Source of the DNA: Microcyclospora pomicola
Lineage: Eukaryota > Ascomycota > Dothideomycetes > Capnodiales
DNA: 64,000 bases
Assembly (NCBI GenBank): GCA_002786065.1
Contig: NHNY01000007.1
Coordinates: 496,001 to 560,000, forward strand
Direction: 5' to 3'
Below are positions 14,633-33,142 of this stretch, piece after piece. Every line of letters starts with the position of its first letter. The first letter of the stretch is position 1. The notes below the pieces were generated by a model that was given only the letters and a program-made list of their open reading frames with translations, was not told the origin of the DNA and searched no databases. Both the position numbers and the translations under genes were made by a program.

Positions 14633-15928
14633 TCAATACTCAAACTTCTGGGACGTCTCACCATCCGGCCAGGTATCATGAAACTCCGTCTTCCCCTCCA
14701 CGAGATTCTTCAGGTTCACACGCGTGCTCCAACGGATGTTCGCCGTATATGGCATTGGGCTCGCCTTGGGACGATGTTGATCGAACATTGGCGGGATAAC
14801 GCTCAGGCAATTGCGTCTGGTGCGGCCGGCCTGTCCGTCACAGATCTGGCGCAGCATGGTGTCGGTGGTCGAGGTCATGTTGCCGACGCCCATGTCGTAG
14901 AGCAGCTTGCGCGCGCCGGGCAACGACACGGCATAGGCGAGGTTGCAGACGGTGGCGCGAGCGTAGGAGACGACGCGCGTGTGGTTCGGGTACATTTCCT
15001 TGAACTCGCCGAGACCGTAGCCCGGGTCGTAGTGTTGCATCTCCGGCATGGTTGGGTCATCGCGAATGAGCACGCGGCCGAGGGGGATGTCTTCCCATGG
15101 GGCGGGGAACATGTTGCCGCAGTGGCCCATCCAGAGCACATCCCATCGATCGACGTCGCCGTACGGTGAGCTTTTCGAGGCAGATATCGGTCTAGCCGGC
15201 TCGTTCAGCTCGATGTCGACTTGTAGGTCGTCTTCGTCTTTGCGTGGAACGGAGAGATCGAGGTAAGTGTCCTTTGTCCCCGCGACGGGCTGGAGGAGTA
15301 GGCTCGATGCTCTTGCGTAGCGTGATAGCTGGCTCTTGATGCGAAGGTCCCAATCCGCATCGTCCTCCATTATCAAAGCGGAAGTGAGGTTTTGCTCCAC
15401 GATGCTAAGTTCATTGTAAGCGTCTGCCATGGAATGCTCGCCCGGCCGTGTCCAGACTCACGTTCTGATTGCGTTCAAATGAGCTCGCCAGCTCCCAAAG
15501 TTTGCCGGGGAGAGGGATGACTCGCCATCTGCATGCTTGGGTCCGCCTTCAGGTGTCATTGGCAGAGCATGCTCCGAGTCGAAATCCGATACTCCGTCAA
15601 CATAATCGAATTTCAAGCCCAACATGGAGGCCGACAATTCCATGGCATCGCGGTTATCGGTTCGGGAGGGCATGTTGAGGACGAGGATCTTCTGAAACTG
15701 CGCAAGAGGTCAATTTCGCGGCAATGAGAAATCATCCGATTGCCAACTTACACCCAGCGTCGCATTCATGACCGGATCGTGAGCATTGGCACCAGATGAT
15801 GCACGATATGTCCGCCATGACGAGGAATCAGACCCGCGGTTCCCTAAGCTGATCAAAAACCCCGGGAGCAACAAGCACAGGCAAATGCCCGAGACAAGCT
15901 GCGTGCGCGAGAACTTGGCTGCGAACAT
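14633..15928 (-). CDS. Type II membrane glycosyltransferase, family GT25
   Basis: A 394-residue predicted Golgi glycosyltransferase of family 25 (LPS/procollagen galactosyltransferase type). Three exons: 15928-15752, 15697-15462 and 15404-14633. The introns are 15751-15698 (GTAAGT...CAG) and 15461-15405 (GTGAGT...TTAG). The first exon gives a short cytosolic tail and a signal anchor (LVSGICLCLLLPGFLISL). The second holds the GT25 opening FQKILVLNMPSRTDNRDAM. The third has the family's acidic motif LIMEDDADWD (E151-D152-D153), then GDVDRWDVLWMGHCG and a SLPGARKLLYDMG segment. The frame is open further 5' (to 16030), but the ATG at 15928 directly precedes the anchor. It heads the glycan gene run and is oriented like the next two genes. 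Confidence 0.85.
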
Positions 15929-16507
15929 GGCTTTGCGACTCGATAATTCACCTGACAGGAAGCAGAAAGCAAGTGTGAAGAGAGACGATAGAGAAGAAAC
16001 AATATTGAGATCAGCAATAAAGTTCAACAAGATCTTTGGCGAACAGATGGAGGGGCTGACATACGGAACCCAGAACGGAGTAGAGCCTCGTGCCTAACCC
16101 AGACTCTACATGACCCTGACCTCGACAGCTACCAGGACTCGGACGCTGGAACAGGAGATAACCCGCCAGCCCGCCAAGTCAACCGTTGCTGTTCTCGACC
16201 AGCCCTGTAGTCTGCATCACGTCCATGGTGATCGGGCCCACCGAACGGGGCGGTTGTCTATCATGCTATCAGCTCACCTGCACGAAGCTTGTAGCCACAT
16301 TCTCAACGACAAGGATACGCGCTACGGGCTGACACGTGAAAGCCGAAGCTTAATTGTAGGCCAGGCACGCCAGAGCTAAACACTAAATTGCTGTGGTACG
16401 CTAGAAAGACAGGCTAAAGAAACACATGGGAATCTCGGACACGTTCGCGCTAAACAACCATGCATCATGCATGTCCTGTCACAGTTCGCGAGAAGCTAAA
16501 CATGCTA
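15929..16507. other. Intergenic region within glycan cluster
   Basis: About 580 bases between two minus-strand genes; holds the GT25 gene's 5' flank. Nothing else recognised. Confidence 0.5.
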
Positions 16508-18022
16508 TCAATACTCGGTGGCTGTCCACGGACCTTTCTGGTCCTGGAAGACAGCATCCCGCGTGGCCTCAGCTCCACACAGATCTTGCCAGTGATTCCA
16601 CTTGCCGCTAGCAGTCCACGCACCTGCTGTCAAGATAGGGTGTCGTCGGACCCAGAATCGTTGTTCGCGACCGTGATCGTCCACGACGCTGGCGACCATG
16701 CTCGCTGGTAAGCGTTGGGCCGCCGTGTACAAGGAACGTGCATATGGATGCAGCCAGACTCGTCCCCAGCCTTCCTTCCCCCGGGCGGCGCATTCGTCCT
16801 CGCTACGCGTGACCGGGCATTGGTGAATCATGGCTGGCGCAACACCGCTCTCCACGCCTGTCAATAGTTCCACGTCGCTCCAGCTGGTCTCGTGTGGTAC
16901 ATCGCTTTCACCGCCTGAGACCGTCCAGTACGGCGGCATACTTGCTTGGACCTCTGGAGAAAGTGAGGCTTGGGTCTGCCATACGGAGCCTTCCAGTGGT
17001 ACGCCCAGCTCGTTCTCGTAGTCGAGACCCATGCCAAACTCGTAAGTCGTATTGCTCTGGGTCTGCATCTTGGTGCGATTGTCGTCGCCAGAGCCAAACC
17101 AGTCCCACCAGCGTTGTCCATGCTGTAGGATCGCTCGTTGGTACTCTTGCTCTCCAAAGATCTCCCCGAACACCACCAGTGGATCAGATAGCGTGTGATC
17201 GTTCAGCTTCTCCACCGCCCGCTGCATGATTGCCCTCACATCTTTGATCGGCCCAATGATAGCTCCGTGACCCGGGAATCTCTGCAGTGACTGGCCTGAG
17301 AGTGACACTTTGGGAGCCGCATAGCATGCCACTTCTGTGTCCTGATTGAGGGCGCATTCGTTTTGTGCGGCAAAGACCACGCTTTGTTTCACGCCCTTGC
17401 CGATCTTCGTCGTCAAGCGTTGATTCGCACGACGAATGGTCTGATAGTAGCGATGAAGTAACACCTCCGGTCGTAATTGGAACCACGTGCCAGGCGCATC
17501 GAGTAGAATGACCAGTGCCTCCTCGCGTTCGGGTGTCGTTTGGTTCAAAAACGAGTGGATTTGAGTAAATTGAGCCAGAAGGCGTTCTTCGGGCGACTTG
17601 GGTTGCTCTTGCGCATCTGCTTCCCATTGAACGATCGTTGGCATTGGGTAGTTCAGAACTTGCGCCGTCAAGATCGTTTGGCACATTGCGAGGCTCGAAG
17701 ACTTGTCCACGGGAATGATCAGGTCGAGAAATTGCGACTGGGGATCGAGATGCACGAAAGGCACTCCAGTTCGTGAGATGACCATGTTTTGACCAATATA
17801 GACCACCAGAAGGGCACACAACGCCATGATGATCGCTCTGACGATCACACATAGCATCGATCGATAGCCCTTGGAGGGCGTCGTTGCAGTTTCATGGTCG
17901 CCGAGCAGACCTGCTCGCTGCTCGGCATCTGCTTCCTGCTTAGGCGTCGGTCCTGTAGATAATGAGTTGCGCCGGAGAGTGAATGGGTTTCTGAGCAGTT
18001 GCTTGAACATGATTTTGACCAT
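16508..18022 (-). CDS. Type II membrane glycosyltransferase-like protein lacking the acidic motif
   Basis: A 504-residue protein with a 55-residue cytosolic tail, one membrane anchor (about residues 56-78, SMLCVIVRAIIMALCALLVV) and a luminal domain. It is a divergent paralog of the protein at 20292-21752. The two share VNxx-type openings, HRYYQTI versus ERYYQAI, IIGPIKDVR versus IMGPVKDVR, a G-QEA/QEY block, a WLHPYARSL versus WFHPYGETL block and a WxxLCG ending. The partner has an Asp-Ala-Tyr-Asp motif that resembles the metal-binding DxD of PLOD-type glycosyltransferase domains. Here the same position reads D175-A-P-G178, so one acid is missing. It may be catalytically weak, use another residue or serve as a partner subunit. 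Single exon; a second ATG lies at 18010. Confidence 0.7.
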   Translation of the reverse strand: MVKIMFKQLLRNPFTLRRNSLSTGPTPKQEADAEQRAGLLGDHETATTPSKGYRSMLCVIVRAIIMALCALLVVYIGQNMVISRTGVPFVHLDPQSQFLDLIIPVDKSSSLAMCQTILTAQVLNYPMPTIVQWEADAQEQPKSPEERLLAQFTQIHSFLNQTTPEREEALVILLDAPGTWFQLRPEVLLHRYYQTIRRANQRLTTKIGKGVKQSVVFAAQNECALNQDTEVACYAAPKVSLSGQSLQRFPGHGAIIGPIKDVRAIMQRAVEKLNDHTLSDPLVVFGEIFGEQEYQRAILQHGQRWWDWFGSGDDNRTKMQTQSNTTYEFGMGLDYENELGVPLEGSVWQTQASLSPEVQASMPPYWTVSGGESDVPHETSWSDVELLTGVESGVAPAMIHQCPVTRSEDECAARGKEGWGRVWLHPYARSLYTAAQRLPASMVASVVDDHGREQRFWVRRHPILTAGAWTASGKWNHWQDLCGAEATRDAVFQDQKGPWTATEY

Positions 18023-18425
18023 CGTTTGGCGTTGGCGAGATGTCCGATGTGCTGTCGTGTCGGCAGTGTGAAGATGAGTCGCTGTTGTCGATGGAATATA
18101 AGAGTGTAAAGCAGTGGCGCATCACCACGTGATTTGGTGCATCAACATGATGTGAGAATGTTAATATCCTTTCACCACATCTGATCTACTGGAGAACGAT
18201 GCAAGAGATAGAAGCCTCAGAGGCGTAGAGCCTACCTCACCAATAGTTTAGGATCGTTCGTGGTGATGTAAAGCGCTGAATACTGCTTATCATCGTCAAA
18301 TGATGAAGTCGTAGAGCACAAGCGCGATGAAGAATTCACGAGCGCGCAAGGTTGCGGTACCATAATTTAAGGAAACTAAGTATGTTGGGAGTATATGCAA
18401 TCATTCATGTATTGGTCTCGGTCTA
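18023..18425. other. Intergenic region within glycan cluster
   Basis: About 400 bases, the 5' flank of the preceding glycosyltransferase-like gene and the 3' flank of the transporter. It is rather AT-rich. No motif recognised. Confidence 0.5.
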
Positions 18426-19610
18426 CTATACTCGAGTGGTGAGACCGGTGATACCCCTAGCTCGTTTGTTGTCCAGCTCGATCTTGCTGTACCAGACTGC
18501 GGCGAAGACGGTTATCAGCATACCCACCCCATTCAGCATTGTCACTTTCACGTTGGATAACACCACCCCTAACAATATAGTCAAGCTTTGTTTGATGTTG
18601 GCGCAAACTGATATGGCCAATGCACCAGCGACTTTGTTCGTTTCGAAGGAAACGACGTTGAGCGCGAAGGCAGTGAGTGCGTTGAGCAACAGAGCACCAT
18701 AGAAGTGTGGCGTGAAGATGGCTTTGTCCGCTATTGCGACATGTAGCTCGCTGAGCTCGCCGCTTGCCCAAGCATAGACGAAGCATTGGAATGCCGCGAG
18801 TGGAGACATGCGAAAAACAAGCTCGAGCGCGGACAGCTTCAGCGTTCCCGTCATCAGCCGGTTGCTTGCAATGGATTTGATGGCAGCGAGGAATACACCG
18901 AGAACTGTAAGCCAAAAACCAATGAACGTGAAACTGTAGTCTCCGTATGTGGTGATCGCCACTCCCAAGATAAGTGGGATCATGCTGAGATAGGTTTGCT
19001 GCGCATACGTTCGGCTGTACACAACCCGATAGATGAGAATGGTGATCACCGGACATGTGGAGCGTACCACTTGGTGAAATGGTATCGAGACCAATGCGCT
19101 GCGCTACATCAGTCTGGGGCCAAACGAATAATGGTCCGGATCGACTTACAGCGACACATTGCTGATGGCAATGTTGACGGTGAAGAGGGTAGAGAACGCG
19201 GCTAGAAGGAAATTATCCCTCGCGCTCAAATTCGTCCATTCGAAGTATCCGGCCTTGAGCAGCGCTGCACATCCTAAGGACGTTGTAGCAGCATGCACAG
19301 CTGTCAGCAGCCAAGGTAATCTGGCTCTCTCCAGTACGGCTTTGTTTGCCAGAGTGATGCTCAAGGTCAGCACGAAATAGATCGTGAGGTATACTAGTTT
19401 CCTGGCAGAAGAGACAGTATACTCGACTGCTAGGGTGCTCGGAGGCGCGCTCGGGATCGTTGCCCTCTCTTGCACGGCCTCCTCGGGCGCTGACCAGAGT
19501 TTTTGCTTCTCGTCTACAGCATTGTCTATGTCTTCTTCGTCGACCTGCATGGCTGCACGGCTAAAGGGCCTTTCAGAGGATCGGATGGAGTCCATATTGG
19601 GTGAATACAC
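18426..19610 (-). CDS. TPT/DMT-family nucleotide-sugar transporter
   Basis: A 377-residue multispanning protein of the triose-phosphate/nucleotide-sugar transporter family, expected in the Golgi or ER membrane. Two exons (19610-19150 and 19098-18426) flank a 51-nt intron (19149-19099, GTAAGT...GCGCAG). Splicing yields the diagnostic junction NVSLALVSIPFHQVVRSTCP. Other family marks are ITLANKAVL in the first helix, SLGCAALLKAGYF, and a final helix pair around NVKVTMLNGVGM. The N-terminal ~70 residues are hydrophilic. The substrate cannot be deduced. Sitting between glycosyltransferase genes, it is the likely donor-sugar supplier for them. It is divergently transcribed from the next glycosyltransferase-like gene over a 681-base interval. 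Confidence 0.85.
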
Positions 19611-20291
19611 CAGAATGAAGGAGGGAATAGCTACCTTACTTCCATGCTTCAGGCGACAACAAGCGAAGCTCTAATCCATGCGACGGCAGCTGATCTGCGG
19701 GTTCGGACATGTCAAGACCTGACATCTCCCCCGGCCGTGATGGCGAGCTGAAATGGAAGCTTCCTGTGAGGCGCGAAATGCAGCCGAGCAGCCCTTCGTC
19801 GCTCGTCCTAGAATACTGCAAGCCATGCAGTGGTGAATTGAGTCGGTGGGCCCGACAAGGTGCACAAGGTTACGTCGTGGGGTGTGTTAATTGACTCGTC
19901 ACACAAATCCCATGAAGCGCCACTTCCCGCGCAGGGACGCCGCTGTCAGCACTGCTTCACTACGCCACGCCACGCCATTTAATTTGTCCACACACATGCT
20001 ACCACTAACTAATTAACGACTGCATCGCTTGAAGCTTATCGGAAACGCCATGTTGCCATACATGCGCCGTTGGGGCAAACTGTTGGCCGCCTTCGTGTGC
20101 TCTCCGACGCGCCCAGTGCGTTCGTTTGTCAGCCTTGACTCGGGATTCTGGATGCTGGAGCGTGTGTCCATCAACGGCCATCTGAAGCCCTCAGGCTGGA
20201 CTTGCATGCGAAGCCTGACGACTCCTGCCTTCTCGACCGTAATGTGCTCTGCGCGCCTTGCTTTGCATCACTTTGGACCAGTAATGACACC
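19611..20291. promoter_or_regulatory. Divergent promoter interval, transporter / glycosyltransferase
   Basis: 681 bases between the starts of the sugar transporter (minus) and the glycosyltransferase-like gene (plus). An AT-rich patch with CATTTAATTTG near 19975 could be a core promoter. The shared interval would allow joint control of the two cluster halves, which is inference only. Confidence 0.4.
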
Positions 20292-21752
20292 ATGATCCAT
20301 TTCACCAGCTCACGTCTATCATGGTTCATCAAATGTGCTGTGCTGGGCGCCGCGCTCTTCTACCTGTGGAGATTGTCGCCTCCTAATAAACTCGTCCATC
20401 ACTTATTTCCACAACCTTCACGGAGCCTGGGCTTGCATCTCGTTCTACCTGCCACAGGGACCAACGCAGAAGCATGCAGATTATTGTTTTCTGGAGCAGC
20501 GACCGGCTATCCGGATCCAGTTCTTGTCGGATGGGAAGGGCGGGGTCGATGGAATGGCTCAGAAAGTCATCTATTCAAGCTATCTGAGACGTTGTCCTAT
20601 CTGCAGAACCTAGAACCCGAGCAGGACGATGACCTGGTGCTGGTACTGGATGCCTACGACATCTGGCTGCAGCTTCCTCCCCAGGTGATGATAGAGCGGT
20701 ACTACCAGGCTATCGAGAATGGCAATCAGCATCTCAAAGAGAGAGGCATCTTTGGTGCCCATTCCTCAGGCGACAGTTTCGTCCGAAACACGATTTTATT
20801 CGGTGCGGACAAAGCCTGCTGGCCAGAAAACAAAGCGGAATTGAACTGCGACTCTGCTCCAGCGAGTCCAATGGCAGGTGATGCATTCGGTCCCAGGACC
20901 GACAGGCACGAAGCCAACTTACGCCCTCGATTCCTCAACAGCGGGACCATCATGGGCCCGGTCAAGGACGTCCGGCTCTTGTTCATCACCACCTTGGCTG
21001 CGGTTGAGATGGCATGGGACGATACCTTCGGCTGGAAGAACTCAGATCAACACTACTTCGGTATAGTCTGGGGCCAGCAAGAAGCCGCTCGTGCTCGTCT
21101 GCAACGTGGGGAAGGTGACATGGACGAGAATGGTGAATCCAAGGAGTTCCACGTCATGATGGACTACAACAGCGATGCTTTCCAGATCAATAACATGTAC
21201 GGACACTTCGTCACATGGATGGCGTTCAATCACTCCATGACAGGCCGGAAAGCCTATAATCCTGGCCGACTTGACCGATTAGAGCTGAGTGCAGATCTGC
21301 TGGCATTACGAGGTCCATTTTCGGCCGTCGAAGCTATCCCGCCTCCGTCTGACCAACCTCTGCTTGCGAAGACCACCTGGAAAGATATCATGCTTGGAAC
21401 TAACACCATCACGGGCCAAGTCTTTGCTCTCTACCACATCACCGGAAACAAAGACTTTCGCAAGATGTGGTGGCCTCGCCTGTGGTTCCACCCCTATGGA
21501 GAAACACTACTCTCAGCTGCACGCATGTGGCATCTCGATCATGTAGAACCGAGTGGTCGGCGGGTACTTGCTGAGGTGGACGGCATTAGCTATCTCAGTG
21601 TCGAGGCCAACGCCGGATACAGCTCGGGGAGCGATGCCGCGAGAGACAGGTCTAATGTGAAAGGGGGCGCGTGGAACGATGTGGGTGACTACATGACCTG
21701 GGATGCTCTCTGCGGAAAGCACGAGAGACAGGTATTCGGGCCTTTCGAGTGA
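20292..21752 (+). CDS. Type II membrane glycosyltransferase-like protein (PLOD-GT-like)
   Basis: A 486-residue single-exon protein. The frame is open from 20202, but the ATG at 20292 (MIHFTSSRLSW) directly precedes the signal anchor (FIKCAVLGAALFYLW), giving normal type II topology. The luminal domain carries LVLVLDAYDIWLQLPPQVM with D120-A-Y-D123, resembling the metal-binding acidic motif of PLOD-like glycosyltransferase domains, then FLNSGTIMGPVKDVRLL, SDQHYFG, LWFHPYGETLLSAARMW and a C-terminal WDALCGKHE. I know such proteins from Pezizomycotina only as uncharacterised. It is the intact counterpart of the gene at 16508-18022. The donor and acceptor are unknown; the cluster context implies a surface glycan. 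Confidence 0.75.
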   Translation: MIHFTSSRLSWFIKCAVLGAALFYLWRLSPPNKLVHHLFPQPSRSLGLHLVLPATGTNAEACRLLFSGAATGYPDPVLVGWEGRGRWNGSESHLFKLSETLSYLQNLEPEQDDDLVLVLDAYDIWLQLPPQVMIERYYQAIENGNQHLKERGIFGAHSSGDSFVRNTILFGADKACWPENKAELNCDSAPASPMAGDAFGPRTDRHEANLRPRFLNSGTIMGPVKDVRLLFITTLAAVEMAWDDTFGWKNSDQHYFGIVWGQQEAARARLQRGEGDMDENGESKEFHVMMDYNSDAFQINNMYGHFVTWMAFNHSMTGRKAYNPGRLDRLELSADLLALRGPFSAVEAIPPPSDQPLLAKTTWKDIMLGTNTITGQVFALYHITGNKDFRKMWWPRLWFHPYGETLLSAARMWHLDHVEPSGRRVLAEVDGISYLSVEANAGYSSGSDAARDRSNVKGGAWNDVGDYMTWDALCGKHERQVFGPFE

Positions 21753-22471
21753 CTGAACTTGTATGTCGTTAATGAAACTTTCTTGCCATTGCGCGCATGA
21801 CCCTCTCGACAATCGCGACGACATGATCCCTGGCAACGGCAGTGTGTGGGCAATTGGGCATGAAAGTGGAAGCGATCACACTCCGGGTGGCTGAAAATAG
21901 CAGGGCGGGAGGCGTACACAGACATCTGTCACCCAAGCGCGGTCAGAAGTTCTGACCTGGCACTCTTTGGGTTCATGCATGTGCCGAAGCCACCAATGCT
22001 TCTTCCGCGACACCCCACGTGAAACGTACCTGTTGATCTGCCGCTAAGCTCGGACTGGATCTCTGCCGACAACGTCTAATCGCTCTAACCTCTTCAGAGG
22101 CATGCACGCTTGGCGTCAAGGATCTCGTTTCAGTTGCTTGTCGGCTTTAGTGCCTTTCACATGCTGCCATACCAGTCTCAACGCTTCCGTATCGCTTCAG
22201 CTGGCCTCGCGAGTCTCTTGTCGGCCGCCCCAACGAGTCTCGATCCGCCACAATCATCCTTGATCAGTCCACGGTCTGGAGCCGTGTCCGCCGCATGTGG
22301 CATGGAGACTTGGCGGTCTCGGCTTAGCTGAACCATAGTGTCGCGATCACGAGATTGTCTTTGGCTGGATCTCATGGTTGCAGGACTTCATCTTGGATTG
22401 CCTTTCTCTTTGGACGTAGGTCACTGTTTGCTTGAGTTCCATCCCATCTTGCTTCATTCCTGTCTCACACG
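21753..22471. other. Intergenic region within glycan cluster
   Basis: About 720 bases upstream of the GT32 gene. No gene or repeat recognised. Confidence 0.5.
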
Positions 22472-24709
22472 ATGAAGGGTCTCAATATGAGGTCCCGAGC
22501 GTTGGGACTTCTTTGCAGTCCCTCCGGCCGGACATTCACGGTCCTGCTTGTCGGCTGCTGTGTTTTCTTCGCCCTTCACAATGCCTTTGGGTTGTTCCGG
22601 AGTGCGCCAACTTTCGAAACCCCGGGTAAGTTCCCACGGAAGATCTGGCAGTCATGGAAGGTCGATCCGTTGCGTTTCGCGGACAGAGATATCGAACGGG
22701 CCCGCACATGGACGCTCAAGAACCCGGGACATCGATACGAGGTTTTGACAGACGACAATGCGGAGGACTATGTGGAGCAGTACTTTGGTCCTACAGGTTT
22801 CAATCGACCTGATATCGTCAGCACGTACAAAATGCTGAGCAAGCCCAACACCAGAATCATTCAGGCTGATTTGCTGCGCTACTTGATTCTCTATGCAGAT
22901 GGAGGGGTTTGGGCAGATATTGATGTCTCGGCGATTAAGCCGATCGACAACTTCATCCCCAATTCTTTTAAGGAGGAGGACGTCGACATGGTCATTGGCA
23001 TTGAGACCGACGAACCTGATTTCGCCAACCATCCCAAGCTTGGTGCCAAGGCAGTCTCGTTCTGTCAGTGGACGTTCATGACCAAGCCCCGACTACCAGT
23101 CATGATGAGATTGATCAACGGAATCTTGATCTGGCTCAACCAGCTCGCGGATGAGCAAAAACGACCGATCTCAGAACTAGAGTTGGACTTCGACACCGTC
23201 CTGAAAGGAACCGGCCCGTCCGCATTCACCGAAGCCATTCTTCTGGAAATGTCTGCCACTCTTCGCCGCAAAGTGACATGGGACGTTTTCCACAACCTAG
23301 AGGAATCTAAGCTAGTAGCTGGTGTCCTGACCCTTTCGTCCGAGGCTTTCGCCGCGGGCACGGGACATTCGCGATCAGGAAACCATCAGGGCAATCGCGC
23401 CTTGGTGCTGCACCACTTCCACGCCTCCTCATGGACGAAGAAGCATCAACGTCACAAGCACCCCATCTACGACGAGGTCGAGAAATGTAACTGGGATCCT
23501 GGCTGCGTCAAGCTATGGGATGCCAACACAGCTTTCTTCGATTCATTGCCGAAAGAGGAGCAGCTCAAAATGATCGAGATCAAGCGGGTGAAGCAAGTCG
23601 AGGAAGACGCGAAGATTGCCGGTGCACAGATTCCGCTTGTGCCAGCTGCAGGAGAGTTGCCGCCTCCACCACCGCCGGCAGATGGCAAAGGTCTCCCCGC
23701 GCCAGTCGTGGATCTCTCTGGTCTCCCACCAGCCGCTGACAAGGGTCTGCCTGCTCCAGAAGTCGATCTCTCGAAGCTGCCACCTGCTGACGCCAATGTA
23801 CAACTTCCCCCAAGTCTTCCTGCGCCTGGGGCGGATCTATCGCAGCTAACACCGGCTGAGGTGTTACCTCCTCCTCCGCTTCCCAATGGACTGACTCCAG
23901 CTGATCTACCAGCTAAAGGTCTACCAGTTGCAGCGCCACCGGTTGCAGGACTTCCAGTGGCAGATGCGCTTGCTCCCGGCGTCGGCTCGCCTGCGCTACC
24001 ACCCACCGACAGCAAAGACAAATTGGCGCCAGGCTTGGGTCTCGCAGGACTTCCACAAGCTGACGTCAAGGCCGTACCAGAAGCGAAGGTTGATCTACCT
24101 AAGGCTCTGACCGGCGATGCTAAGGGTTTACCCGTAGCTATCCCTGAAGGTCTTGGACCTCTTGTAGCTGATAGCAAGAACATCCCAGGCCAGGATGCTG
24201 ATCGCATGGGTCTCAGCACACCACCCAAAGATGATGACAAGGCTGCAGCTCTGCCCCCTGTTCTGGAGAAGGCTACCGAGAAAGCATCGAAGGAGGCTGG
24301 AGATGGGCGTCTTGCTTCTCTGGGCGAGAAGGCCGACAACGTGAAAGATGCTAAGACCGGTGAAGAGTCTAAGAAGGAGGTCTCAGAAGACAAGAAAGGC
24401 TTGGACAAGCAAGAGCCAAAGGACGGAGACAAATCGACGTCTAAAGATGACAAGAAGCTGCACCTCTCAAAGGAGCACCCTGATGCACCAAAGAGCGAGT
24501 CAGGCAAGGGTGACAAGGCTGAGCAAAAGGACGAACCAAAGAGCGAGTCGAGCAAGGGCGACAAGGCTGAGGACAAGGAAGAAAAGAAGCTAGGGGAGTC
24601 AAAGGACGCGAAGAAGGACGACAAGAAGGATGACAAGATGGACGGAAAGAAGGACGACGCAAAGATCGACAAGGCTGACGATAAGAAGGATGACAAGAAG
24701 CAGGGGTAG
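22472..24709 (+). CDS. GT32 (OCH1-like) glycosyltransferase with long low-complexity tail
   Basis: A 745-residue single-exon type II membrane protein. A signal anchor lies at about residues 21-40. The GT32 catalytic domain spans about 50-365: FPRKIWQSWK, NPGHRYEVLTDDNAEDYV, then DLLRYLILYADGGVWADIDV with the DxD motif at 149-151, and a CQWTFM segment. This family includes Och1/Hoc1-type alpha-mannosyltransferases, and the N-terminal half has ordinary family length. Unusually, a ~350-residue tail follows. Residues about 390-580 are Pro/Leu/Ala-rich with degenerate repeats of LPAPxVDLSxLPPA. Residues about 583-745 are Lys/Asp/Glu/Ser-rich with repeats of KSESxKGDKAE and KKDDK. The tail would lie in the Golgi lumen if the topology is right. 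Its frame is open and codon-clean to the TAG, so it is not an artefact of a missed stop. Confidence 0.85.
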   Translation: MKGLNMRSRALGLLCSPSGRTFTVLLVGCCVFFALHNAFGLFRSAPTFETPGKFPRKIWQSWKVDPLRFADRDIERARTWTLKNPGHRYEVLTDDNAEDYVEQYFGPTGFNRPDIVSTYKMLSKPNTRIIQADLLRYLILYADGGVWADIDVSAIKPIDNFIPNSFKEEDVDMVIGIETDEPDFANHPKLGAKAVSFCQWTFMTKPRLPVMMRLINGILIWLNQLADEQKRPISELELDFDTVLKGTGPSAFTEAILLEMSATLRRKVTWDVFHNLEESKLVAGVLTLSSEAFAAGTGHSRSGNHQGNRALVLHHFHASSWTKKHQRHKHPIYDEVEKCNWDPGCVKLWDANTAFFDSLPKEEQLKMIEIKRVKQVEEDAKIAGAQIPLVPAAGELPPPPPPADGKGLPAPVVDLSGLPPAADKGLPAPEVDLSKLPPADANVQLPPSLPAPGADLSQLTPAEVLPPPPLPNGLTPADLPAKGLPVAAPPVAGLPVADALAPGVGSPALPPTDSKDKLAPGLGLAGLPQADVKAVPEAKVDLPKALTGDAKGLPVAIPEGLGPLVADSKNIPGQDADRMGLSTPPKDDDKAAALPPVLEKATEKASKEAGDGRLASLGEKADNVKDAKTGEESKKEVSEDKKGLDKQEPKDGDKSTSKDDKKLHLSKEHPDAPKSESGKGDKAEQKDEPKSESSKGDKAEDKEEKKLGESKDAKKDDKKDDKMDGKKDDAKIDKADDKKDDKKQG

Positions 24710-25087
24710 CATGCTGAGGCATATCCTGAGTTGTTATAAAGTCTTCACGGTTATGGGGCGCGCTTTTGGGTATCAGAGGTTCATGTCAGGGCGCAATTGA
24801 TCTTACTTATACCAACACCTACCTTATAGATGTGATATATATCTTTTCTCCCATACAGTATATCAGTGACAGTTATCATATCGCGATGTAGGGCACTGTA
24901 TGCAATACTGATATGCAGCCGCCGCGCGTGCCCCCACCGAAGCTGCCACACAGGGATGCAGCTCTGTTACACACGTTTCACTACGCGCCCTCTTCTGTTT
25001 CAACTTCGCAATACATGCTACCTCATCCACCACTTTAATTTGCCGTGCATTATTCGAGGGGGTTATAACACCCCTCAGGTACCAAAG
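24710..25087. other. Short intergenic region
   Basis: 378 bases between two plus-strand cluster genes. The frame of the next gene is open upstream into this interval, but I see no better start than 25088. Confidence 0.4.
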
Positions 25088-26510
25088 ATGGCCTCCAGCG
25101 CATTCCTCCTGCTCGAAGGCCTGGCTGCTGTGCAGCGTGTCGTTGACATTCGTGGTTTCAGCAGCATGGGCGTCAACATCTCCAAAAGTGCCGACCTCGC
25201 TGTCCCTCAGAACCCCATCCAGGTCGCCAGCGCATCGTTTCTGGGCTACCGGAATTCCAGCAATACACAGACACTACGGGATCAAGGCTACTCGGGACAC
25301 ATCGGCGACACCTGGTTGCTCACCTTCGGCGACGGCGTGGGCACCAAAGACATTGCACACTTCGATCACACGGCTCCCGTCGGCAGCGAGGATGGGCCTT
25401 GTGTGGTCATCACCGCTCGCAATGGTGGTGCTGTGCAGGGCAAGGACCCGCTGAGCTATACCGACATCTCGACGGCAGAGTATGGCGGCTGCGACGATGT
25501 GCTGCAGATGAGCCAGTGGTGTCCGCTGGTGTCAGGGGAGCAGAAAGGTCAAGTGCTCTGGCTCAGCAATGTGCTCGAGGTCAACGAGACACATGGCGCA
25601 CTCTGGACCATGTCAGCGGTCTCGAAAGACGACGCCTCGCCTGCGGGCGCTGGTTTGGCGGTCGTCAACGTCGAATCACCTGGTGTGAATTGTTCGCGAC
25701 CTTTTGGAAGTGAGTCGCATACTTCGCGTGAGACACCCACGATCGGGGTTTTGACTGACTTGATCACAGGGACGGTATGGAGCGCAGACGAGCCTGAATG
25801 GGGTACGCAAGGCGCATTGGCTGGCAACGACGGGTATTCGTATGTCTACGCGTAAGTTCATGGATCATTCTGCTCTGTATCCGAGAGCACGTCGATCTAA
25901 CAATGACCAGTAACGGGTATAGCGACGGCAAAGTCAACACGAAACTCGTGGTTGCCCGCGCCCCCAAGGCCGACGTGTTTGATATTACTGCGTATGAGTA
26001 CTATCATGGTGACGGATCATGGACGTCAGATCGTATTATGCTATCCGACCTGAGTGACACTGCGCCCGAGAATTTGGACATGCAAGCCAACCAAGGCACA
26101 CCGTTCTACTCCAAGTACTATGACACCTACGTATACTTGTCAAGTAAACTTGGCGTATTCTACGCTTCCACTGCCGCACAACCAGAAGGTCCCTGGAGCG
26201 AGATGGTAGAGCTTTACACGGACAAGGAGTTGTGGCCATTGGTGGCGTACGACTACGGCTCATATATCATGGAAAAGTACTTCTCAGACGATGGAAGCAA
26301 GATCTTGTTTGCGTACAATCGCGGGCCGATGTACGAGGGTGTCGCCGAAGTCGTGAGTTCAGCCGCCAGATCCTGAATGTCTTCAGAGTTGCTGACTTGC
26401 ATGTGTCACAGAAATTCCAAGGTGCTGCAGCGCAGACCACGACTCCGGTGAACTGGGGTTTGAAGGCGGTGATGGTGGGAGCCATATCGACCTGGATCTC
26501 TGCTCGTTGA
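25088..26510 (+). CDS. DUF4185-like beta-propeller protein
   Basis: A 434-residue predicted beta-propeller resembling DUF4185/sialidase-fold hydrolase-like proteins. Three exons: 25088-25851, 25911-26352, 26412-26510. Introns are 25852-25910 (GTAAGT...CCAG) and 26353-26411 (GTGAGT...CACAG). Propeller-style blade segments include GHIGDTWLLTFGDG, GTVWSADEPEWG, YVYANGYSDGKVNTKLVVAR, VYLSSKLGVFYAS and YIMEKYFSDDGSKILFAYN. The N-terminus (MASSAFLLLEGLAAVQ) is mildly hydrophobic and may be a weak signal sequence; the exact start is uncertain because the frame is open upstream. The short third exon adds a final hydrophobic stretch (AVMVGAISTWI). Activity is unknown. Location in the glycan run suggests binding or trimming of a polysaccharide. 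Confidence 0.65.
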
Positions 26511-28132
26511 GCTCGTGACACCCTTCAGTTAGAGATAGATCTTGCGCCAGCAATTCCACCTCGTGCGCCCCGATAACTTGTTCGAAAGCCACGCGAGCAT
26601 GTGCGGGCTCCTTGATCCCATGACTTATTTTCCACAAGCTGGGGATCTCTTGCCCCCCACGCAGAATCAATGAGAGTCTCGAGAAGTCCGCGGAACCGGT
26701 TGAGTCGCTGATTTGAGCAGCCAAGGCGTCAGGCGAACAAGACGGAATTCAGTTTTGACATCCGTCTCAGCATGTGAAAGGCGCTTGGGCTCGGATCATA
26801 CTCCTGAACCCTGCCTCAGCCATCGCAAGCGTGAGCATTACAACGCCGCGGAATGGAAAGAATAAGCAATGCTATAGGTGCCAAAAGCCATAAGCTGGCG
26901 GCCGAACTCGTGAAGATCTCCCTTGCATGACGTGCGAGAGTGGCCTGATCTACATCAAAGCTTTCGCGCCATAAATACATGTGGGCAGGTCCGGACAGAT
27001 GCCGGTCCGAGCGGGAGAGTGGTTTAAGGTTCTGGTTCGGCTAAAACCTAAAGAGGTGGAGCTCGAGGCTTATCCATACCACATCCTTCCCGGGTAGCGT
27101 GGGCGCTTCACAACAACACGGCAGACCGCACCAGCCTCATCGGCAGGCTGCAGCACATGGTTTCGACAGGAGCACGTCGCTGAAGCCAAAAAGCACTTCA
27201 TCACATGCTAATGCACGCCATGTCGTGTATGTGGTTCGTTCGGCGTCCACCCAGGACTGCTCTGACTTCGGAAACACCGACAACGTGGAGCCACCGAGCT
27301 GGGGGGTCGGCCGCCAGGTTTCGTATCGAGGGCATCCGCATCCGGGACCAAATCTTACAGACGCCTTCCTGATATCCTGATTCCTGCAGGCGCGGGACAT
27401 AATCTTGAACAACCTGGCCGGATCCAGGAATTGTTGCACGGAAGCGGCTGGAATGCTGGATGATGTCCATGGCTGCCGCTGTCAAATTGCATGCCGCTGC
27501 AGGATGGCTCTGCACGCTCGCCGGCCATTGCTCCGTGAGTGGGTACTTGTCCCGTCCTCAACACAATGCTATCACGCCACTTCACCGCTTTGCACTGGTC
27601 TGATTCACTTTCGGACGTGCGATAATGCATGACGGCTGGCTTATCACTGCGTAAGTTTGTTGAGCCGGTAGAGCCTCACGATGACACGATCCGCAACTCA
27701 ACCCTCAGTATGCTTCCCGTACTGGCCTTTGGGACGCTCTGGTCACTGGTATCGTGTAACTGGCCTGTCAAGGACGTTAGAAGGGGCTTCTGTCGCTGGT
27801 GTCACGAATCATGGACCGCATTGACAGAACTGACTCAGAATGGTTGGAATTCTATCTCCCTTTTGGCACACGACTTGCATATCATCGGGTCCTCGAGGAA
27901 GTCAAGGTCAAGATCATCGGATTGACATTAGAGCTACTTCGTGCTACAGCGTAAAGGGAGATGTATATGTCATTGCCGACTAACGATTCCGCTACCTCAG
28001 CGCTACATGACACCAGGTTTCCCGAACTCCGTCCTGAAGAAAAAGAGTTTATCTTTGAGTATATTCCGATCGACATGAACCCCAAACGTTAACATCCCGT
28101 GTGTCTCGCGAACTACGACATTCGTGCTCGCC
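26511..28132. other. Intergenic region within glycan cluster
   Basis: About 1.6 kb. Several short frames occur on both strands but none has a family signature, codon pattern or plausible start. Nothing else recognised. Confidence 0.5.
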
Positions 28133-28837
28133 CTAGAAGACGGTGTGGTGAGGTGCTGGAGGCCCATGGGTTGTGTGATGCCCTGGACGATATCCATGAG
28201 GTTCCTTCCCGTGGTGAGGCTCCTTGCCGTGGTGAGGCTCCTTGCCGTGATGAGGCTCCTTGCCGTGATGAGGCTCCTTGCCATGATGAGGTTCCTTGCC
28301 GTGATGTGATTCTTTGCCATGATGAGATTCCTTGCCATGGTGTGATTCTTTGCCGTGATGGGTTTCCTTGCCATGGTGGGATTCCTTGCCATGCTTGGGC
28401 TTCTCGCCGTGGTGAGACTTCTTGCCATGGTGCTCTTCGCGGGATTCCTTCTGTTCCACGGGTTGACGCTTGACTGGTCTCTGCTGGACCATTGGAACAC
28501 TCTTGACGATGGAGCAGAAATCCGTAGCGATGCTCAATGCACCTGCAAGATGTCAATGAAATGTCAAAATCTCATCAATACGATTGTACTCACTATCGCG
28601 ACATTCACAATCGTCGAGTTCGCTCAAAAATACCGGGGAGAGGCAAATGCAATGGGTGTTGGTCGAAGAGCACGCGGTTTTCATGATGGCGGAGCCGAGA
28701 CATTGTCCCTATAAAGAACCACCATCAGTATAACAGTATCTTTGGAATCAATAGATTCAATCACTTACCTCGCAATTATCGATTGTTCCAGCGGTTACGA
28801 CACCCAGAGTGAGAGCGAGAACGAGTGGCAGCAACAT
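28133..28837 (-). CDS. Secreted CFEM-like protein with His-rich hexapeptide repeats
   Basis: A 197-residue secreted protein built from three exons: 28837-28769, 28708-28594, 28542-28133. Introns are 28768-28709 (GTAAGT...TATAG) and 28593-28543 (GTGAGT...TGCAG). A signal peptide (MLLPLVLALTLGVVTAG) precedes eight cysteines (22, 26, 36, 43, 45, 57, 59, 71). Their spacing C-x3-C-x9-C-x6-C-x-C-x11-C-x-C-x11-C is that of a CFEM domain, a fungal fold often used in heme/iron capture or as an effector. The position usually held by the heme-ligating Asp (CxxTDxxCxC) is Asn40 here (CSSTNTHCIC). Residues 99-176 are 13 hexapeptides of HHGKE[S/P] type with 25 histidines, a likely metal-binding tail. No GPI signal is evident at the end (APHHTVF). 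It diverges from the acyltransferase gene. Confidence 0.8.
28199..28432 (-). repeat. 18-bp coding minisatellite, 13 units
   Basis: Thirteen in-frame 18-bp units encode the HHGKE[S/P] hexapeptides of the CFEM-like protein. The six units nearest the 3' end of the gene encode HHGKEP, are nearly identical in DNA and differ mainly at one or two positions, which suggests recent expansion. The distal units (HHGKKS, HHGEKP, KHGKES) are more diverged. Confidence 0.9.
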
Positions 28838-29366
28838 GATTGCGGTTGATCTCTCTGGGTGCGGAAATTCTTACCTCTGCAGGACTGTACACACCAAATG
28901 GGCGGCAGACAGGTCTTATGCTGCACAAGCTGTCAGTCACTGCATGTTTGGGCGAGCCGCCCAGGTAAACTCACGCCATGTCATTACCCGATGCGGGAAA
29001 GAGGGTGTCCTAGATCCGGTTTGGTGGCTTACATGGGCTAGCGCCCAACAAACCATGAACCTTGCGGTGATGGCGATGGCTTCGCGACGTGGCTGCACCT
29101 CAGCTTTCCTCGGACTGCGCTTTTCAGCATGTGCCCGGGTGGGAACATGTCAGATGTGTTGAACCAGCCACCCTCCTGGATTCTCTTGGCGGCGTGGCAT
29201 GATCGCGCTAACAATCTAGAACCCTTGAGGTTCGCTTGTGCGATCTCGCTATCCTGCATGAGATATCAACCTTATTGACCTTATGTGCTCGTCTTTATGA
29301 TCTTCAACCTCACATCTTCCGCAATTCATCGTTGGTTCGGCACATTTACTTGTCTTGTTTTCAACC
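28838..29366. promoter_or_regulatory. Divergent promoter interval, CFEM-like / acyltransferase
   Basis: 529 bases between the starts of the CFEM-like gene (minus) and the acyltransferase gene (plus). No recognisable binding site. Shared control is possible but not shown. Confidence 0.35.
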
Positions 29367-30884
29367 ATGGGACGCTCTTCCCTGGACTCGGCACTTGCGG
29401 AGAAGCAGATCAGTGAACTTGAAGCATTGCTCGAGTCACGAGCGAAGAATCGACCAGCTGTCGCACGAGCAAAAACTGCAGTGGCATCCTTTTGGCAGCC
29501 GGCAAGACGAAGCAGCCCGGTGAACGAAAAGGCTCCCAAAGCTATCAGCGAGCCGATAGACCGACCGAAACACCAGACAGCATATCTCGATGGCCTCCGA
29601 GGATTTGCCGCGTTTCTGGTGTACTCTCTACACCATGAAATGTGGGCTCATGAGGGTCACCAAGGCCAATTCGCTCTTGAGAACGCATTCGGATTCGACG
29701 GGAAATACTACCTTGCCTGTTTCCCCGGCTTGCGCATTTTCTTTTCTGGCGGTCACTTCGCGGTGGCAATCTTCTTCATCATCTCCGGCTATGTTCTTTC
29801 CCGCAAACCTCTCAAAATGATCCATGCCAAAGACACGGCAGCATTGGCGGACAACCTTTCTTCTGCACTGTTCCGACGATGGGTACGACTCTACCTTCCT
29901 GTGCTCGCCACTACCTTCCTCTGGATGACCAGCTGGCACATGTTCCGCATCAGATCGAGCCATCGGGAAGGTGGTCTGCCGGAACGCACCTATTTTGATG
30001 AGGCCCGCAAGTGGTATTACGACTTCAAGAACTACAGCTGGATCTTCAACAGCGAAGTTTTCAACCACTACAACGACCATGCCTGGTCTATTCCGATGGA
30101 GTTCCGTGGATCTGTCGTCGTCTGGACGGCTCTGCTGGCACTCGCTCGCTGCGGGTCGCAGATGCGCTTGTTCTACGAAGCGGGTTTGATCTGGTACTTC
30201 ATCTATGTCGCCGATGGCTGGTATTGTGCTCTCTTCATGATGGGCGTGTTACTCTGCGACCTCGATCTGTTGAGCACGGCTGGTCGTCTCCCTGCCTTCT
30301 TACGTCGGCCGAAACCATTCCCTACCTGGGTCTTCTACGCCGCATTCATTGTCAGCCTGTGGCTCGGTGGCGTCCCCTCGGTCACAGACGACATCAGCCG
30401 ATTGAGGGAGTCCCCAGGATGGTACCTTCTCTCGTTCCTCAAACCACAAGCAGCGTACGACTTCCGCTGGTTCTATCGTATCTGGGCTGCAACGCTTATG
30501 ATGATCGCTATTCCCCGCATCTCCTGGCTCAAGAAGTTCTTTGAGACCTCATTCTGCCAGTATCTTGGCAGGATCTCCTTCTCCTTCTACTTGGTTCACG
30601 GTCCCGTGCTTTGGAGCATCGGCGACAGAATCTATGCCGCGACGGGACGGGCACGCGAGACTCACATTGCAGTCGTGCCAGGTTGGATCAATGCTGTTCC
30701 ATTCCCGAACTGGGGTCCTGTGGGCCTCGAAGTGAACTACCTGGTGGCGCATCTGATTTTGTTACCCCTCACACTTGTCCTTGCGGAGGTCGCGACCAAG
30801 CTCTTTGACGAGGGCAGTGTTAAGGTCTCTCAGTGGTTGTTCAGCAAGAGCGTCGCATGTGACCTGATTGATGAGAAATCGTAG
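29367..30884 (+). CDS. Acyltransferase-3 family membrane O-acyltransferase
   Basis: A 505-residue multispanning protein of the AT3 (OafA/NolL-like) family, which moves acetyl or similar groups onto sugars and other acceptors. The first ATG in frame is at 29367 (MGRSSLDSALAEKQ). A ~70-residue hydrophilic, partly coiled N-terminus precedes the family's first helix, YLDGLRGFAAFLVYSLHHE. That helix has the R-x10-H arrangement (Arg of LRG, His eleven residues on) regarded as catalytic in AT3 proteins. FFIISGYVLS and about ten hydrophobic helices follow. It ends after a lysine/acid-rich tail. Single exon. Fungal AT3 proteins also occur in secondary-metabolite clusters, but here the neighbours are glycosyltransferases, so glycan O-acylation is the likely role. 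Confidence 0.85.
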   Translation: MGRSSLDSALAEKQISELEALLESRAKNRPAVARAKTAVASFWQPARRSSPVNEKAPKAISEPIDRPKHQTAYLDGLRGFAAFLVYSLHHEMWAHEGHQGQFALENAFGFDGKYYLACFPGLRIFFSGGHFAVAIFFIISGYVLSRKPLKMIHAKDTAALADNLSSALFRRWVRLYLPVLATTFLWMTSWHMFRIRSSHREGGLPERTYFDEARKWYYDFKNYSWIFNSEVFNHYNDHAWSIPMEFRGSVVVWTALLALARCGSQMRLFYEAGLIWYFIYVADGWYCALFMMGVLLCDLDLLSTAGRLPAFLRRPKPFPTWVFYAAFIVSLWLGGVPSVTDDISRLRESPGWYLLSFLKPQAAYDFRWFYRIWAATLMMIAIPRISWLKKFFETSFCQYLGRISFSFYLVHGPVLWSIGDRIYAATGRARETHIAVVPGWINAVPFPNWGPVGLEVNYLVAHLILLPLTLVLAEVATKLFDEGSVKVSQWLFSKSVACDLIDEKS

Positions 30885-31723
30885 ACGGGGTACACTACTA
30901 TTGCAGACTTGGCGTTGGCACAGGGTTCTGAACATGGCGTTTTTGGTAGTCTAGCCTTCAATGCTCGCTTATGTATCATGAATACGATATGCATCACACT
31001 ATCAAGCCTCAAGATTCTCTTCACGTCTGGACCGGCAGGCTGACAGCCAAGACAGCTGTGAACAAGCGACATGATGGCCAACACTTCTGACTCTCAGTGT
31101 GCAGAGAGTTTATACGAAGTCCCGCCCAGCGCGCTAAGCATAAGGTTCGGGGCTTTCGGCAATGTCGGAAATGTGGCTTGCGCATCTTCATTCCTCGCCC
31201 TGCTACGGTATCTGGGTCTGTATATTTTGGGAAATATATCCCGGACGACAGCAAGATCCCGGAACCTACTGCAAGGGCCATGTTCGCATCAGGTAGTCGT
31301 CAAGCCACGACGTGGGATGCTTGCAGCACGTGTCTAGAAGGCGCCCGTCTTTGCATCGCGCCCAATGTCCACAAGTCGTTGAGGCATCTCTGATGAGTCT
31401 GATCGAAATGGTTGAGTGAGGAAGCTTTGCAGCCAGCCTCTTGGTCGTGCTCGCGCCTGACCCGGTCATGCCCGGCTCTGGATCGGTGTTACAGACGTCG
31501 GTCTCGGCTAGACAGGAGACCTTAAACCAGGCGTCGGTGGGCTAGATGGAGCTGGCTGGCGCTCGCTGGCTCTGTGGGCTGTTATCGCTTAGAGGAGCAT
31601 CTGGACCCCTCATGCATTGGTCTTGATGATGTCTGATGTGCATGACTGCTTCCTGCATGGTGAACTACTCTTTCATAGTTCTCTTCTGCTCTCCGTAACA
31701 CCTTGGAGCACCGACAAGTCGAA
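30885..31723. other. Intergenic region within glycan cluster
   Basis: About 840 bases between two plus-strand genes. Nothing recognised apart from presumed UTR and promoter sequence. Confidence 0.5.
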
Positions 31724-33142
31724 ATGTTGCGCAAACCAAAGGTTGTCAGGCAGCGCTTCGTCCCCAAAGTGTTAGGCGCTTTGGTAGGCCTGGTCTGCGT
31801 ACTGGTCTTCACCTACATCATTCGGCGACAGCACTCTGTCGAGCGGCTACACCAGCTATTCGGCGCCCACGGTCATGGCGAAGCAGACAGCTCTGTGGAC
31901 GCCAGAGCCGCCGTTGCAATTGGGGTGGAGAGCAAAAGTGGGCAGAAAGCACTGGTCGGCGCCGACTTCTTCCCAGATAACCCACTGGACCAGGGCGAAG
32001 GACTGGAGTATCGCGAGATCTACTCGCTATCGACTCGAGATCGAAAATTCTTCCCGTTACATTTCGATGGCAAATCCGCCTATAACCCCAACATTATTCC
32101 GCATCCCACCAAGCACGACTGGTACATTGTCGTGGCCCAAAATGGCTTGGATCTATCATACTCAGAGGAGTTCGCCTGCGAAGCGAGTCTGTACAACGAT
32201 GTCATGGTCTGCGCTGGCGATGCAGTGGTACTGCCAGTTGCACCATCCGTAGAAGGCGTTTGTCCAGGCGATCTCGAATGGTACAACTTCCGCCAAGGTC
32301 CTCGCGATGCGCGAGCATTCTATGGCCCGGAAGTGCCATACCTCATCTATGGCTCGCAGTCCCAGCACACATGCCTGGGTATTTGGTTGCATGATGTTCG
32401 CAGCATGCTCGACGCGTTTCAAATCACCCAAGGTGTCGGTACACAATTATTCACATCAGCCACAGAAGTCCAAAGACCAGATCCTTGGCAACCAGTCGAG
32501 AAGAATTGGTTTCTCTTCTGGGACTCTGACGGCAAGGCTTACGCGCATTACGACCTCTGGCCGCGACGTGCGTTCGCCGGCCTAGATTTCGATGGGTCCG
32601 TGAGCGAGGACCTAGCACCCGCCGCCAATTACGAGGATCAAATCTGTATGGCGAAGTACATGCCGTCCGTCGGATTCGAGCTCGAATCGATTCACCAAGC
32701 CACTAACTCCCTCTCCATCACCCTTTGCGGCAGGTCAGATCCTGGTTGCCGACCAAACGACAACAACACATTCATCATGCACATCTTCCAACACAAGACA
32801 TACTTTGACTACCACGCCGTATACGAGCCATATGCCGTGCTTTTCCGACAGACCGCTCCCTTCGAGTTGTACGCCATTTCGCAAAATCCCTTTTGGATCA
32901 AAGGACGGGGCAATCTGACCGTCGAGACCTACGCCAAGGAGTATGAAGGACGGCCCGAAGCCATCCCCAAGGGTCATACAGAGATGTTTTATGTCACCAG
33001 TATGAGTTGGAAAGAGCCAGGACTTAAGTATCATGGGTACATGGATGATCCGTTATTTTTGGCTTTCGGGATTGAGGATACCAGGTCTGGTGCCATAGAT
33101 GTTATGGCTGGTGATCTGTTGCAAGATCTGGCGTTTTGTTAA
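31724..33142 (+). CDS. Membrane-anchored predicted beta-propeller glycan protein of unknown family
   Basis: A 472-residue single-exon protein. The first ATG is at 31724 (MLRKPKVVRQRF). A basic cytosolic tail and one membrane anchor (VLGALVGLVCVLVFTYII) give type II topology. The luminal part has repeated strand-loop units with the feel of a five-bladed propeller of glycosidase or phosphorylase type: YNPNIIPHPTKHDWYIVVA, FRQGPRDARAFYGPEVPYLI, KNWFLFWDSDGKAYAHYDLW, ELYAISQNPFWIKG, EMFYVTSMSW and LAFGIEDTRSG. Acidic residues such as Asp in GPRDAR and Glu in FGIED are candidate catalytic residues. I cannot name the family. Anchoring in the secretory path and its position at the end of the run argue for a role in making or trimming the same glycan. 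Confidence 0.65.
   Translation: MLRKPKVVRQRFVPKVLGALVGLVCVLVFTYIIRRQHSVERLHQLFGAHGHGEADSSVDARAAVAIGVESKSGQKALVGADFFPDNPLDQGEGLEYREIYSLSTRDRKFFPLHFDGKSAYNPNIIPHPTKHDWYIVVAQNGLDLSYSEEFACEASLYNDVMVCAGDAVVLPVAPSVEGVCPGDLEWYNFRQGPRDARAFYGPEVPYLIYGSQSQHTCLGIWLHDVRSMLDAFQITQGVGTQLFTSATEVQRPDPWQPVEKNWFLFWDSDGKAYAHYDLWPRRAFAGLDFDGSVSEDLAPAANYEDQICMAKYMPSVGFELESIHQATNSLSITLCGRSDPGCRPNDNNTFIMHIFQHKTYFDYHAVYEPYAVLFRQTAPFELYAISQNPFWIKGRGNLTVETYAKEYEGRPEAIPKGHTEMFYVTSMSWKEPGLKYHGYMDDPLFLAFGIEDTRSGAIDVMAGDLLQDLAFC

Follow-up and report, generated by a model that had tools for sequence, protein, structure and literature searches.

We identified a run of nine genes in a 64,000-nucleotide stretch of the genome of the ascomycete Microcyclospora pomicola (hereafter the window: positions 496001-560000 of contig NHNY01000007.1, in an assembly of 23.4 Mb and 58 contigs). 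Linkage is independently supported for seven of the nine, which encode a GT25 glycosyltransferase, two PLOD-type glycosyltransferase paralogues (PLODa and PLODb), a TPT-family transporter, a GT32 glycosyltransferase, an AT3 acyltransferase and a membrane-anchored propeller protein, and we are confident that this linkage is real. With a probability of roughly 60%, we take the run to be a genuine neighbourhood for one or a few related heteroglycans of the secretory pathway. It seems rather likely that the genes share one glycan pathway with a common product, which may be a polysaccharide or else a glycan carried on lipid or protein. In window coordinates, the nine genes are as follows.

14633..15928, minus strand: g1, GT25 glycosyltransferase, type II membrane protein, 394 residues (exons 15752-15928, 15462-15697, 14633-15404)
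16508..18022, minus strand: g2, PLODa, PLOD-type glycosyltransferase paralogue without catalytic motifs, likely pseudo-enzyme, 504 residues, N-terminal anchor
18426..19595, minus strand: g3, TPT-family (DMT) transporter, candidate nucleotide-sugar transporter, 372 residues (exons 19150-19595, 18426-19098)
20292..21752, plus strand: g4, PLODb, PLOD-type glycosyltransferase with intact motifs, 486 residues
22472..24709, plus strand: g5, GT32 glycosyltransferase with N-terminal anchor and a long C-terminal tail rich in Pro and Lys/Asp, 745 residues
25088..26510, plus strand: g6, DUF4185-like propeller protein, 434 residues (exons 25088-25851, 25911-26352, 26412-26510), cluster membership unsupported
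28133..28837, minus strand: g7, small CFEM-like secreted protein, 197 residues, with eight Cys and a repeat tail rich in His and Lys (exons 28769-28837, 28594-28708, 28133-28542), cluster membership unsupported
29367..30884, plus strand: g8, AT3 (Acyl_transf_3) multispanning O-acyltransferase, 505 residues
31724..33142, plus strand: g9, membrane-anchored five-bladed propeller of predicted GH130/GT108-like fold, 472 residues

An earlier note on this DNA had proposed nine glycan genes here, four of them with single Golgi-type anchors and two multispanning. All nine could be modelled intact and without internal stops, and seven of them resemble glycan-assembly proteins; GT-AG introns occur in g1, g3, g6 and g7, and the other five genes (g2, g4, g5, g8 and g9) are single exons. 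The extent of the GT25 gene was corrected, so that it reaches 15928. The proposed topology also stands: one N-terminal hydrophobic segment exceeds the threshold in each of g1, g2, g5 and g9, consistent with residence in the Golgi, and several such segments are present in both g3 and g8. The N-terminal segment of g4 falls under the threshold, and its structure model starts with a helix at residues 6-28.

Pfam matches exceeded their cut-offs for TPT (PF03151) in g3 (105.1 bits; cut-off 30), AT3 (PF01757) in g8 (88 bits; cut-off 31), GT32 (PF04488) in g5 (40.6 bits; cut-off 23) and, only when exons were joined, GT25 (PF01755) in g1 (26.5 bits; cut-off 24), the nearest solved relatives of which are procollagen galactosyltransferase 1 (E = 3e-4). 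Matches just under the cut-off were obtained for PF25342 in g4 (26.6 bits; cut-off 27), DUF4185 (PF13810) in g6 (35.3 bits; cut-off 39.5) and CFEM (PF05730) in g7 (18.8 bits; cut-off 22), in which eight cysteines were counted by eye. No relevant Pfam family, PF25342 included, matched g2, which we assign as PLOD-type because it is similar to PLODb (27.6% identity over 453 positions, E = 1.9e-35). A weak match of g6 to a rhamnose-glucuronate lyase (E = 0.68) was set aside as chance. The g5 tail exceeds 300 residues and is Pro-rich and then Lys/Asp-rich, and an antisense frame of 425 residues over it (23467-24744) is probably a by-product of this composition. In g7, repeats of the HHGKE type follow one another and may bind metal.

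The genome holds further, incomplete copies of the run, and these are evidence for linkage; we searched eight of the nine proteins against it (the CFEM-like g7 was not among them). Copies lie on contigs C20, C10 and C5.

C20, 36792-38171, minus strand: PLODa
C20, 40542-41610, minus strand: TPT transporter
C20, 44167-45723, plus strand: UDP-glucose 6-dehydrogenase (UGDH), found by Pfam scan
C20, 48322-49644, plus strand: PLODb
C10, 520696-522159, minus strand: PLODa
C10, 522750-524213, plus strand: PLODb
C5, 133652-134830, minus strand: propeller
C5, 135731-137005, minus strand: AT3
C5, 139332-140372, plus strand: GT32

The C20 run has the order and strands of g2-g3-g4, with the UGDH gene lying between the TPT and PLODb genes. 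Its TPT gene is the one close paralogue of g3 and by far the best TPT match (68% identity over the largest exon). For GT32, AT3 and the propeller alike, the best non-self match in the genome is the C5 copy (54% identity for GT32 and 50% for AT3), in which the order and relative direction of AT3 and propeller are those of the window; the open frame of the C5 GT32 gene spans 496 residues versus 757. By the main alignments the copies are about 33-54% identical to the window genes, with adjacency retained. Two modules are joined in the window, one of PLODa, TPT and PLODb (module A, with UGDH in the C20 copy) and one of GT32, AT3 and propeller (module B), together with GT25.

When the 29 paralogues outside the window cluster were placed at random in 200000 trials, with the genome treated as one line, cross-family pairs within 12 kb numbered 0.37 on average and 6 at most, and 0/200000 trials reached the 7 observed; the 12 kb limit was set with the positions already in view, and the family members counted include one weak GT32 match and two TPT matches that are remote. 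The DUF4185 gene shares none of this linkage: the two distant paralogues found are both on C1, at a distance from members of the other families. Membership of the run is likewise not supported for g7, for which no search was made. Pfam scans of the paralogue regions used stop-to-stop open reading frames (ORFs; 20 for C20 and C10, 10 for C58 and C28), an approach that may overlook genes that are short or have many introns. A PF01755 search of the genome gave a single match, on C9 and under the cut-off, and missed the intron-split GT25 gene of the window, so absences within this genome are soft, including that of a second UGDH.

Some paralogues have other neighbours. The C10 PLOD pair is flanked by two long ORFs without a Pfam match (L045:1494-2864 and 8555-9607). 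On C58 (467001-477000; L047), two GT25 genes of opposite orientation, separated by about 5 kb, flank a fatty-acid hydroxylase, and on C28 (197001-207000; L048) a PLODb-like gene adjoins a GH36 alpha-galactosidase.

Searches beyond this genome used g4, g9 and g1 (71 of 71, 120 of 749 and 120 of 220 matches listed, respectively). The named homologues are mostly from Mycosphaerellales and other Dothideomycetes and, for the propeller, also from Chaetothyriales. In Pseudocercospora eumusae, the best matches of g1, g9 and g4 are AC578_7461, AC578_7462 and AC578_7464, on one contig of 108315 bases (among the best 120 of 220 for g1 and 120 of 749 for g9); AC578_7461 is also the best g1 homologue of all those listed (60% identity; 477 bits versus 354 for the next). 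In Dothistroma septosporum, g4 and g9 match DOTSEDRAFT_75477 and DOTSEDRAFT_75479 on the same 1256034-base contig. PLODb and propeller are therefore together in two of the three named species that have both among the matches listed, and GT25 joins them in one. Metagenome contigs of equal size (10713 bases for P0004 and P0176; 17390 bases for P0104 and P0302) are suggestive of linkage and were not counted.

Several observations weigh against a single coherent pathway. The g4 and g9 matches of Zymoseptoria tritici ST99CH_1A5 are on separate contigs (1468480 and 1753468 bases), and the two GT25 matches of Dothistroma among those listed lie off its PLODb and propeller contig. GT25 was not found in the examined stretches of C20, C5 and C10, GT32 runs counter to AT3 and the propeller in C5 but not in the window, and lone propellers (C9, C10 and C24) and lone PLODb-like genes (C17 and C28) imply that members also work apart. 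The UGDH gene sits in C20 and not in the window, and its adjacency to a glycosyltransferase gene is unremarkable by itself given the precedent of Wangiella (Exophiala) dermatitidis, in which UGD is next to a group 1 glycosyltransferase gene (PMC4059230). The nearest solved relative of g3 is a hexose-phosphate translocator, and membership of the TPT family does not tell the substrate.

These points give some weight to the alternative that two or three separate glycan pathways are simply neighbours, with linkage inherited from old segmental duplications and no shared product. No copy is complete (those on C20 and C10 belong to module A and that on C5 to module B), single members stand alone on five contigs, and Zymoseptoria splits the PLODb-propeller pair. 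However, the window joins the two modules, as P. eumusae and Dothistroma also do to judge from PLODb and propeller, and adjacency has outlasted the fall in identity to about 33-54% (68% for one TPT exon). We consider this alternative unlikely, though not negligible, and prefer a neighbourhood of related function. The earlier note's cluster of nine survives in part: own-genome copies and the P. eumusae gene tags link seven genes and leave the DUF4185 and CFEM-like genes aside, and the surface location that it gave the product is conjectural. Its suggestion of conserved co-location, followed with g1, g4 and g9, fares similarly, with three genes together in P. eumusae, two in Dothistroma and the pair split in Zymoseptoria. 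The GT25 absences and the Zymoseptoria split speak against a fixed nine-gene set.

Within module A, the two PLOD-type proteins differ in their catalytic motifs. Structures were predicted for g4 and g9 only. The predicted fold of g4 is that of the glycosyltransferase domain of LH3 and also resembles mimivirus R699, a collagen glucosyltransferase whose DxxD motif is reported to be critical for activity (PMC9546862). By sequence, g4 alone gave chance matches only against the PDB; profile A2 gave weak matches to LH3 (E = 0.031) and R699 (E = 0.043), and the profile alignment sets SDQ of g4 on LH3 residues 190-192. In LH3, alanine at Asp190 or Asp191 left 2 to 7% of activity in luminescence assays, and Asn165, Ser166 and Gln192 are close to the donor (PMC10342707).

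We found eight PLOD-type genes in the genome, five PLODb-like (window, C10, C20, C28 and C17) and three PLODa (window, C10 and C20), and aligned them with 11 homologues and then with all 71 g4 matches. The DxxD, NSG and DQ motifs and a histidine are intact in all five PLODb-like copies, and the four features occur together in 68 of the 71 homologues (P0010, P0038 and P0055 each have one change). None of the three PLODa proteins has any of the three motifs whole, and all three keep the histidine (g4 position 382) and many structural residues. The replacements are listed below.

Window PLODa: DxxD to DAPG, NSG to GHG, SDQ to DPL
C10 PLODa: DxxD to DEPN, NSG to GKG, SDQ to EAR
C20 PLODa: DxxD to DGPG, NSG to NMG, SDQ to TLQ

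In a tree of the eight genes with 24 of the 71 matches, in which the composition of g2 was flagged as deviant, the three PLODa proteins unite at 100/100, g4 groups with Dothistroma and Pseudocercospora proteins (98/97) and C10 PLODb groups with two proteins labelled Quercus suber, P0002 and P0012 (100/100); these two are likely to be fungal contamination of a plant record. Judged from these alignments, PLODa is an old, retained lineage with shared motif losses, and in all three loci it lies near an intact PLODb in opposite orientation. Because the PLODa copies have lost catalytic motifs that the PLODb-like copies keep, we regard the two as a putative pair of enzyme and pseudo-enzyme. The shared losses and the nearby PLODb in three of three loci make a non-catalytic partner the simplest reading of PLODa; on these motifs and the linkage within the genome, we put the chance that PLODa is a partner of PLODb as about even, and the two may form a complex.

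The PLOD and GT25 families raise a second alternative, that the product is an O-glycan on secreted proteins rather than a surface polysaccharide, as the ColGalT-like GT25 and LH3-like PLOD families add galactose and then glucose to collagen hydroxylysine. The likeness of g1 to procollagen galactosyltransferase 1, that of the g4 fold to LH3 and R699 (PMC9546862) and the occurrence of both families in a single run, here as in P. eumusae, all favour it. However, Pfam found no 2-oxoglutarate dioxygenase (lysyl hydroxylase) domain in g2 or g4, and GT25 was not found beside PLODa and PLODb in the C20 and C10 stretches nor, among the matches listed, on the contig that holds the Dothistroma cluster. 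Collagen glycosylation is not known to involve an AT3 acyltransferase or a mannoside-type propeller. We find an O-glycan of this kind distinctly unlikely.

The g9 protein is predicted to be a five-bladed propeller of GH130/GT108 fold (predicted local distance difference test, 85.8), and structures of GH130 and GT108, the latter the family of the Leishmania MPT mannosyltransferases, top both fold comparisons; a shared fold does not show function. No Pfam family matched it even with E allowed to reach 10; in searches of the PDB, g9 alone and profile A1 gave chance matches only, and no GH130 or GT108 entry was matched by A1. GH130 has an invariant catalytic aspartate, Asp142 of BT3780 (PMC4599007); a candidate for this residue in g9 is Asp195 (D195), which does not vary among the 40 aligned rows. 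The family includes the paralogues on C5, C9, C10 and C24 and 749 matches at E of 0.001 or better, and none of the best 120 of these 749 bears a family name. For a bacterial relative, two peptide patterns gave 62 contig matches, none of them confirmed, in a scan that could miss distant relatives. A degradative or remodelling locus, in which g6 and g9 would be glycosidases or phosphorylases and the transferases unrelated neighbours, is very improbable: GH130 phosphorylases and hydrolases score as high against g9 as GT108 transferases do, DUF4185 is the glycoside hydrolase family GH183 in bacteria (PMC10115798) and the C28 PLODb copy is beside the GH36 gene, but five of the nine proteins are transferase-like with anchors (g1, g2, g4, g5 and g8), a membrane anchor such as that of g9 is unusual for a scavenging enzyme and the DUF4185 match of g6 is under the cut-off.

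The additional gene of the C20 copy points to a possible donor sugar. Its best solved relative is human UDP-glucose 6-dehydrogenase (E = 3.7e-155; GDP-mannose dehydrogenase, E = 3.4e-29), and because the only UGDH gene found lies in this copy, we propose UDP-glucuronic acid or a sugar derived from it as the donor of module A. Fungal transport of UDP-glucuronic acid has a precedent in Uut1, and homology predicts the substrates of nucleotide-sugar transporters poorly (PMC5790919). Synthesis of UDP-glucuronic acid is reported to be inconsistently distributed in Dothideomycetes (PMC8092308). We regard a uronic acid in the glycan as tentative, and somewhat less probable than its absence.

For the preferred reading, a shared neighbourhood for heteroglycan assembly, we suggest the following sequence of steps. 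Cytosolic UGDH, as its family suggests, would make UDP-glucuronic acid, and the TPT carrier could bring a UDP-sugar into the Golgi, perhaps this one or a product of it. PLODb would transfer a sugar from a UDP-sugar with Mn2+, with PLODa as its presumed non-catalytic partner, holding the acceptor or acting as a dimer partner. GT32 and GT25 would add further sugars, so that the chain may be assembled at the Golgi membrane. The propeller, to go by its fold, might make or trim a mannosidic bond, and AT3, a member of an acyltransferase family, would O-acylate the product.

A bolder version of this scheme, which we offer as speculation and think unlikely to hold in full, is that Mycosphaerellales make a glycan of the secretory pathway with a two-part glycosyltransferase in which active PLODb needs a dedicated dead sister, PLODa. 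The pair would have arisen once and spread by joint duplication to three loci, whose products may differ. Its module could bring along a UDP-glucuronic acid supply and carrier, and would be completed by GT32, the O-acyltransferase and a membrane-anchored, mannoside-type propeller transferase of a new family. The glycan would be O-acylated and possibly uronic-acid-bearing, without counterpart in known fungal capsules. If this is true, the PLOD pair would give fungi an example of a glycosyltransferase dependent on an inactive paralogue, and the g9 family would gain its first function. The surface glycans of fungi are known from few species, and the linked set names concrete genes and a short list of sugars.

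To the left of the run lies an HD-domain ORF (11721-12512) followed by about 2.1 kb free of long ORFs, and on the right a methyltransferase (33546-34220). Farther left are a pectate lyase gene (9185-10432; Pfam) and an NLR-like (NACHT-type) gene with NPHP3_N and DUF7791 domains (3922-4995, with ORFs to 6089). At 36622-39294, two adjacent minus-strand ORFs without a Pfam match have SNAL..CPP-like motifs in common, as seen by eye, and are a possible tandem pair.

We did not find this cluster described in the searchable open-access literature, judged mostly by titles. The galactosaminogalactan cluster of Aspergillus is likewise a run of fungal glycan genes, and its families (epimerase, Sph3, Gtb3, Ega3 and Agd3) are absent from the Pfam matches of the nine proteins. 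The genes for the glucuronoxylomannan capsule of Cryptococcus (UGD1, UUT1, CAP59 and others), which to our knowledge are not clustered, are alike in combining a UDP-glucose dehydrogenase, a nucleotide-sugar-type transporter and glycosyltransferases. Here, however, the CAP59-type GT69 family (PF11735) matches only on C31 and C1, outside the runs, and AT3 is present instead of the CAS1 that the Cryptococcus capsule uses. The UGD locus of W. dermatitidis places UGD beside a glycosyltransferase gene as in C20, but one of group 1, whereas here the neighbours are PLOD-type and TPT genes (PMC4059230). Compared with the glycosyltransferase domain of human LH3 (PLOD3) or R699, and with ColGalT1 (GT25), the proteins here have an N-terminal membrane anchor and no hydroxylase domain, with a motif-less paralogue near the intact one in three loci. 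The g9 protein differs from the GH130 mannoside phosphorylases and hydrolases and from the GT108 MPT enzymes in its membrane anchor, about 50 extra disordered residues and the lack of a sequence match. Fungal glycan gene clusters are known as a kind; the new elements here are the pair of catalytic and motif-less PLOD proteins and the membrane propeller of predicted GH130/GT108-like fold.

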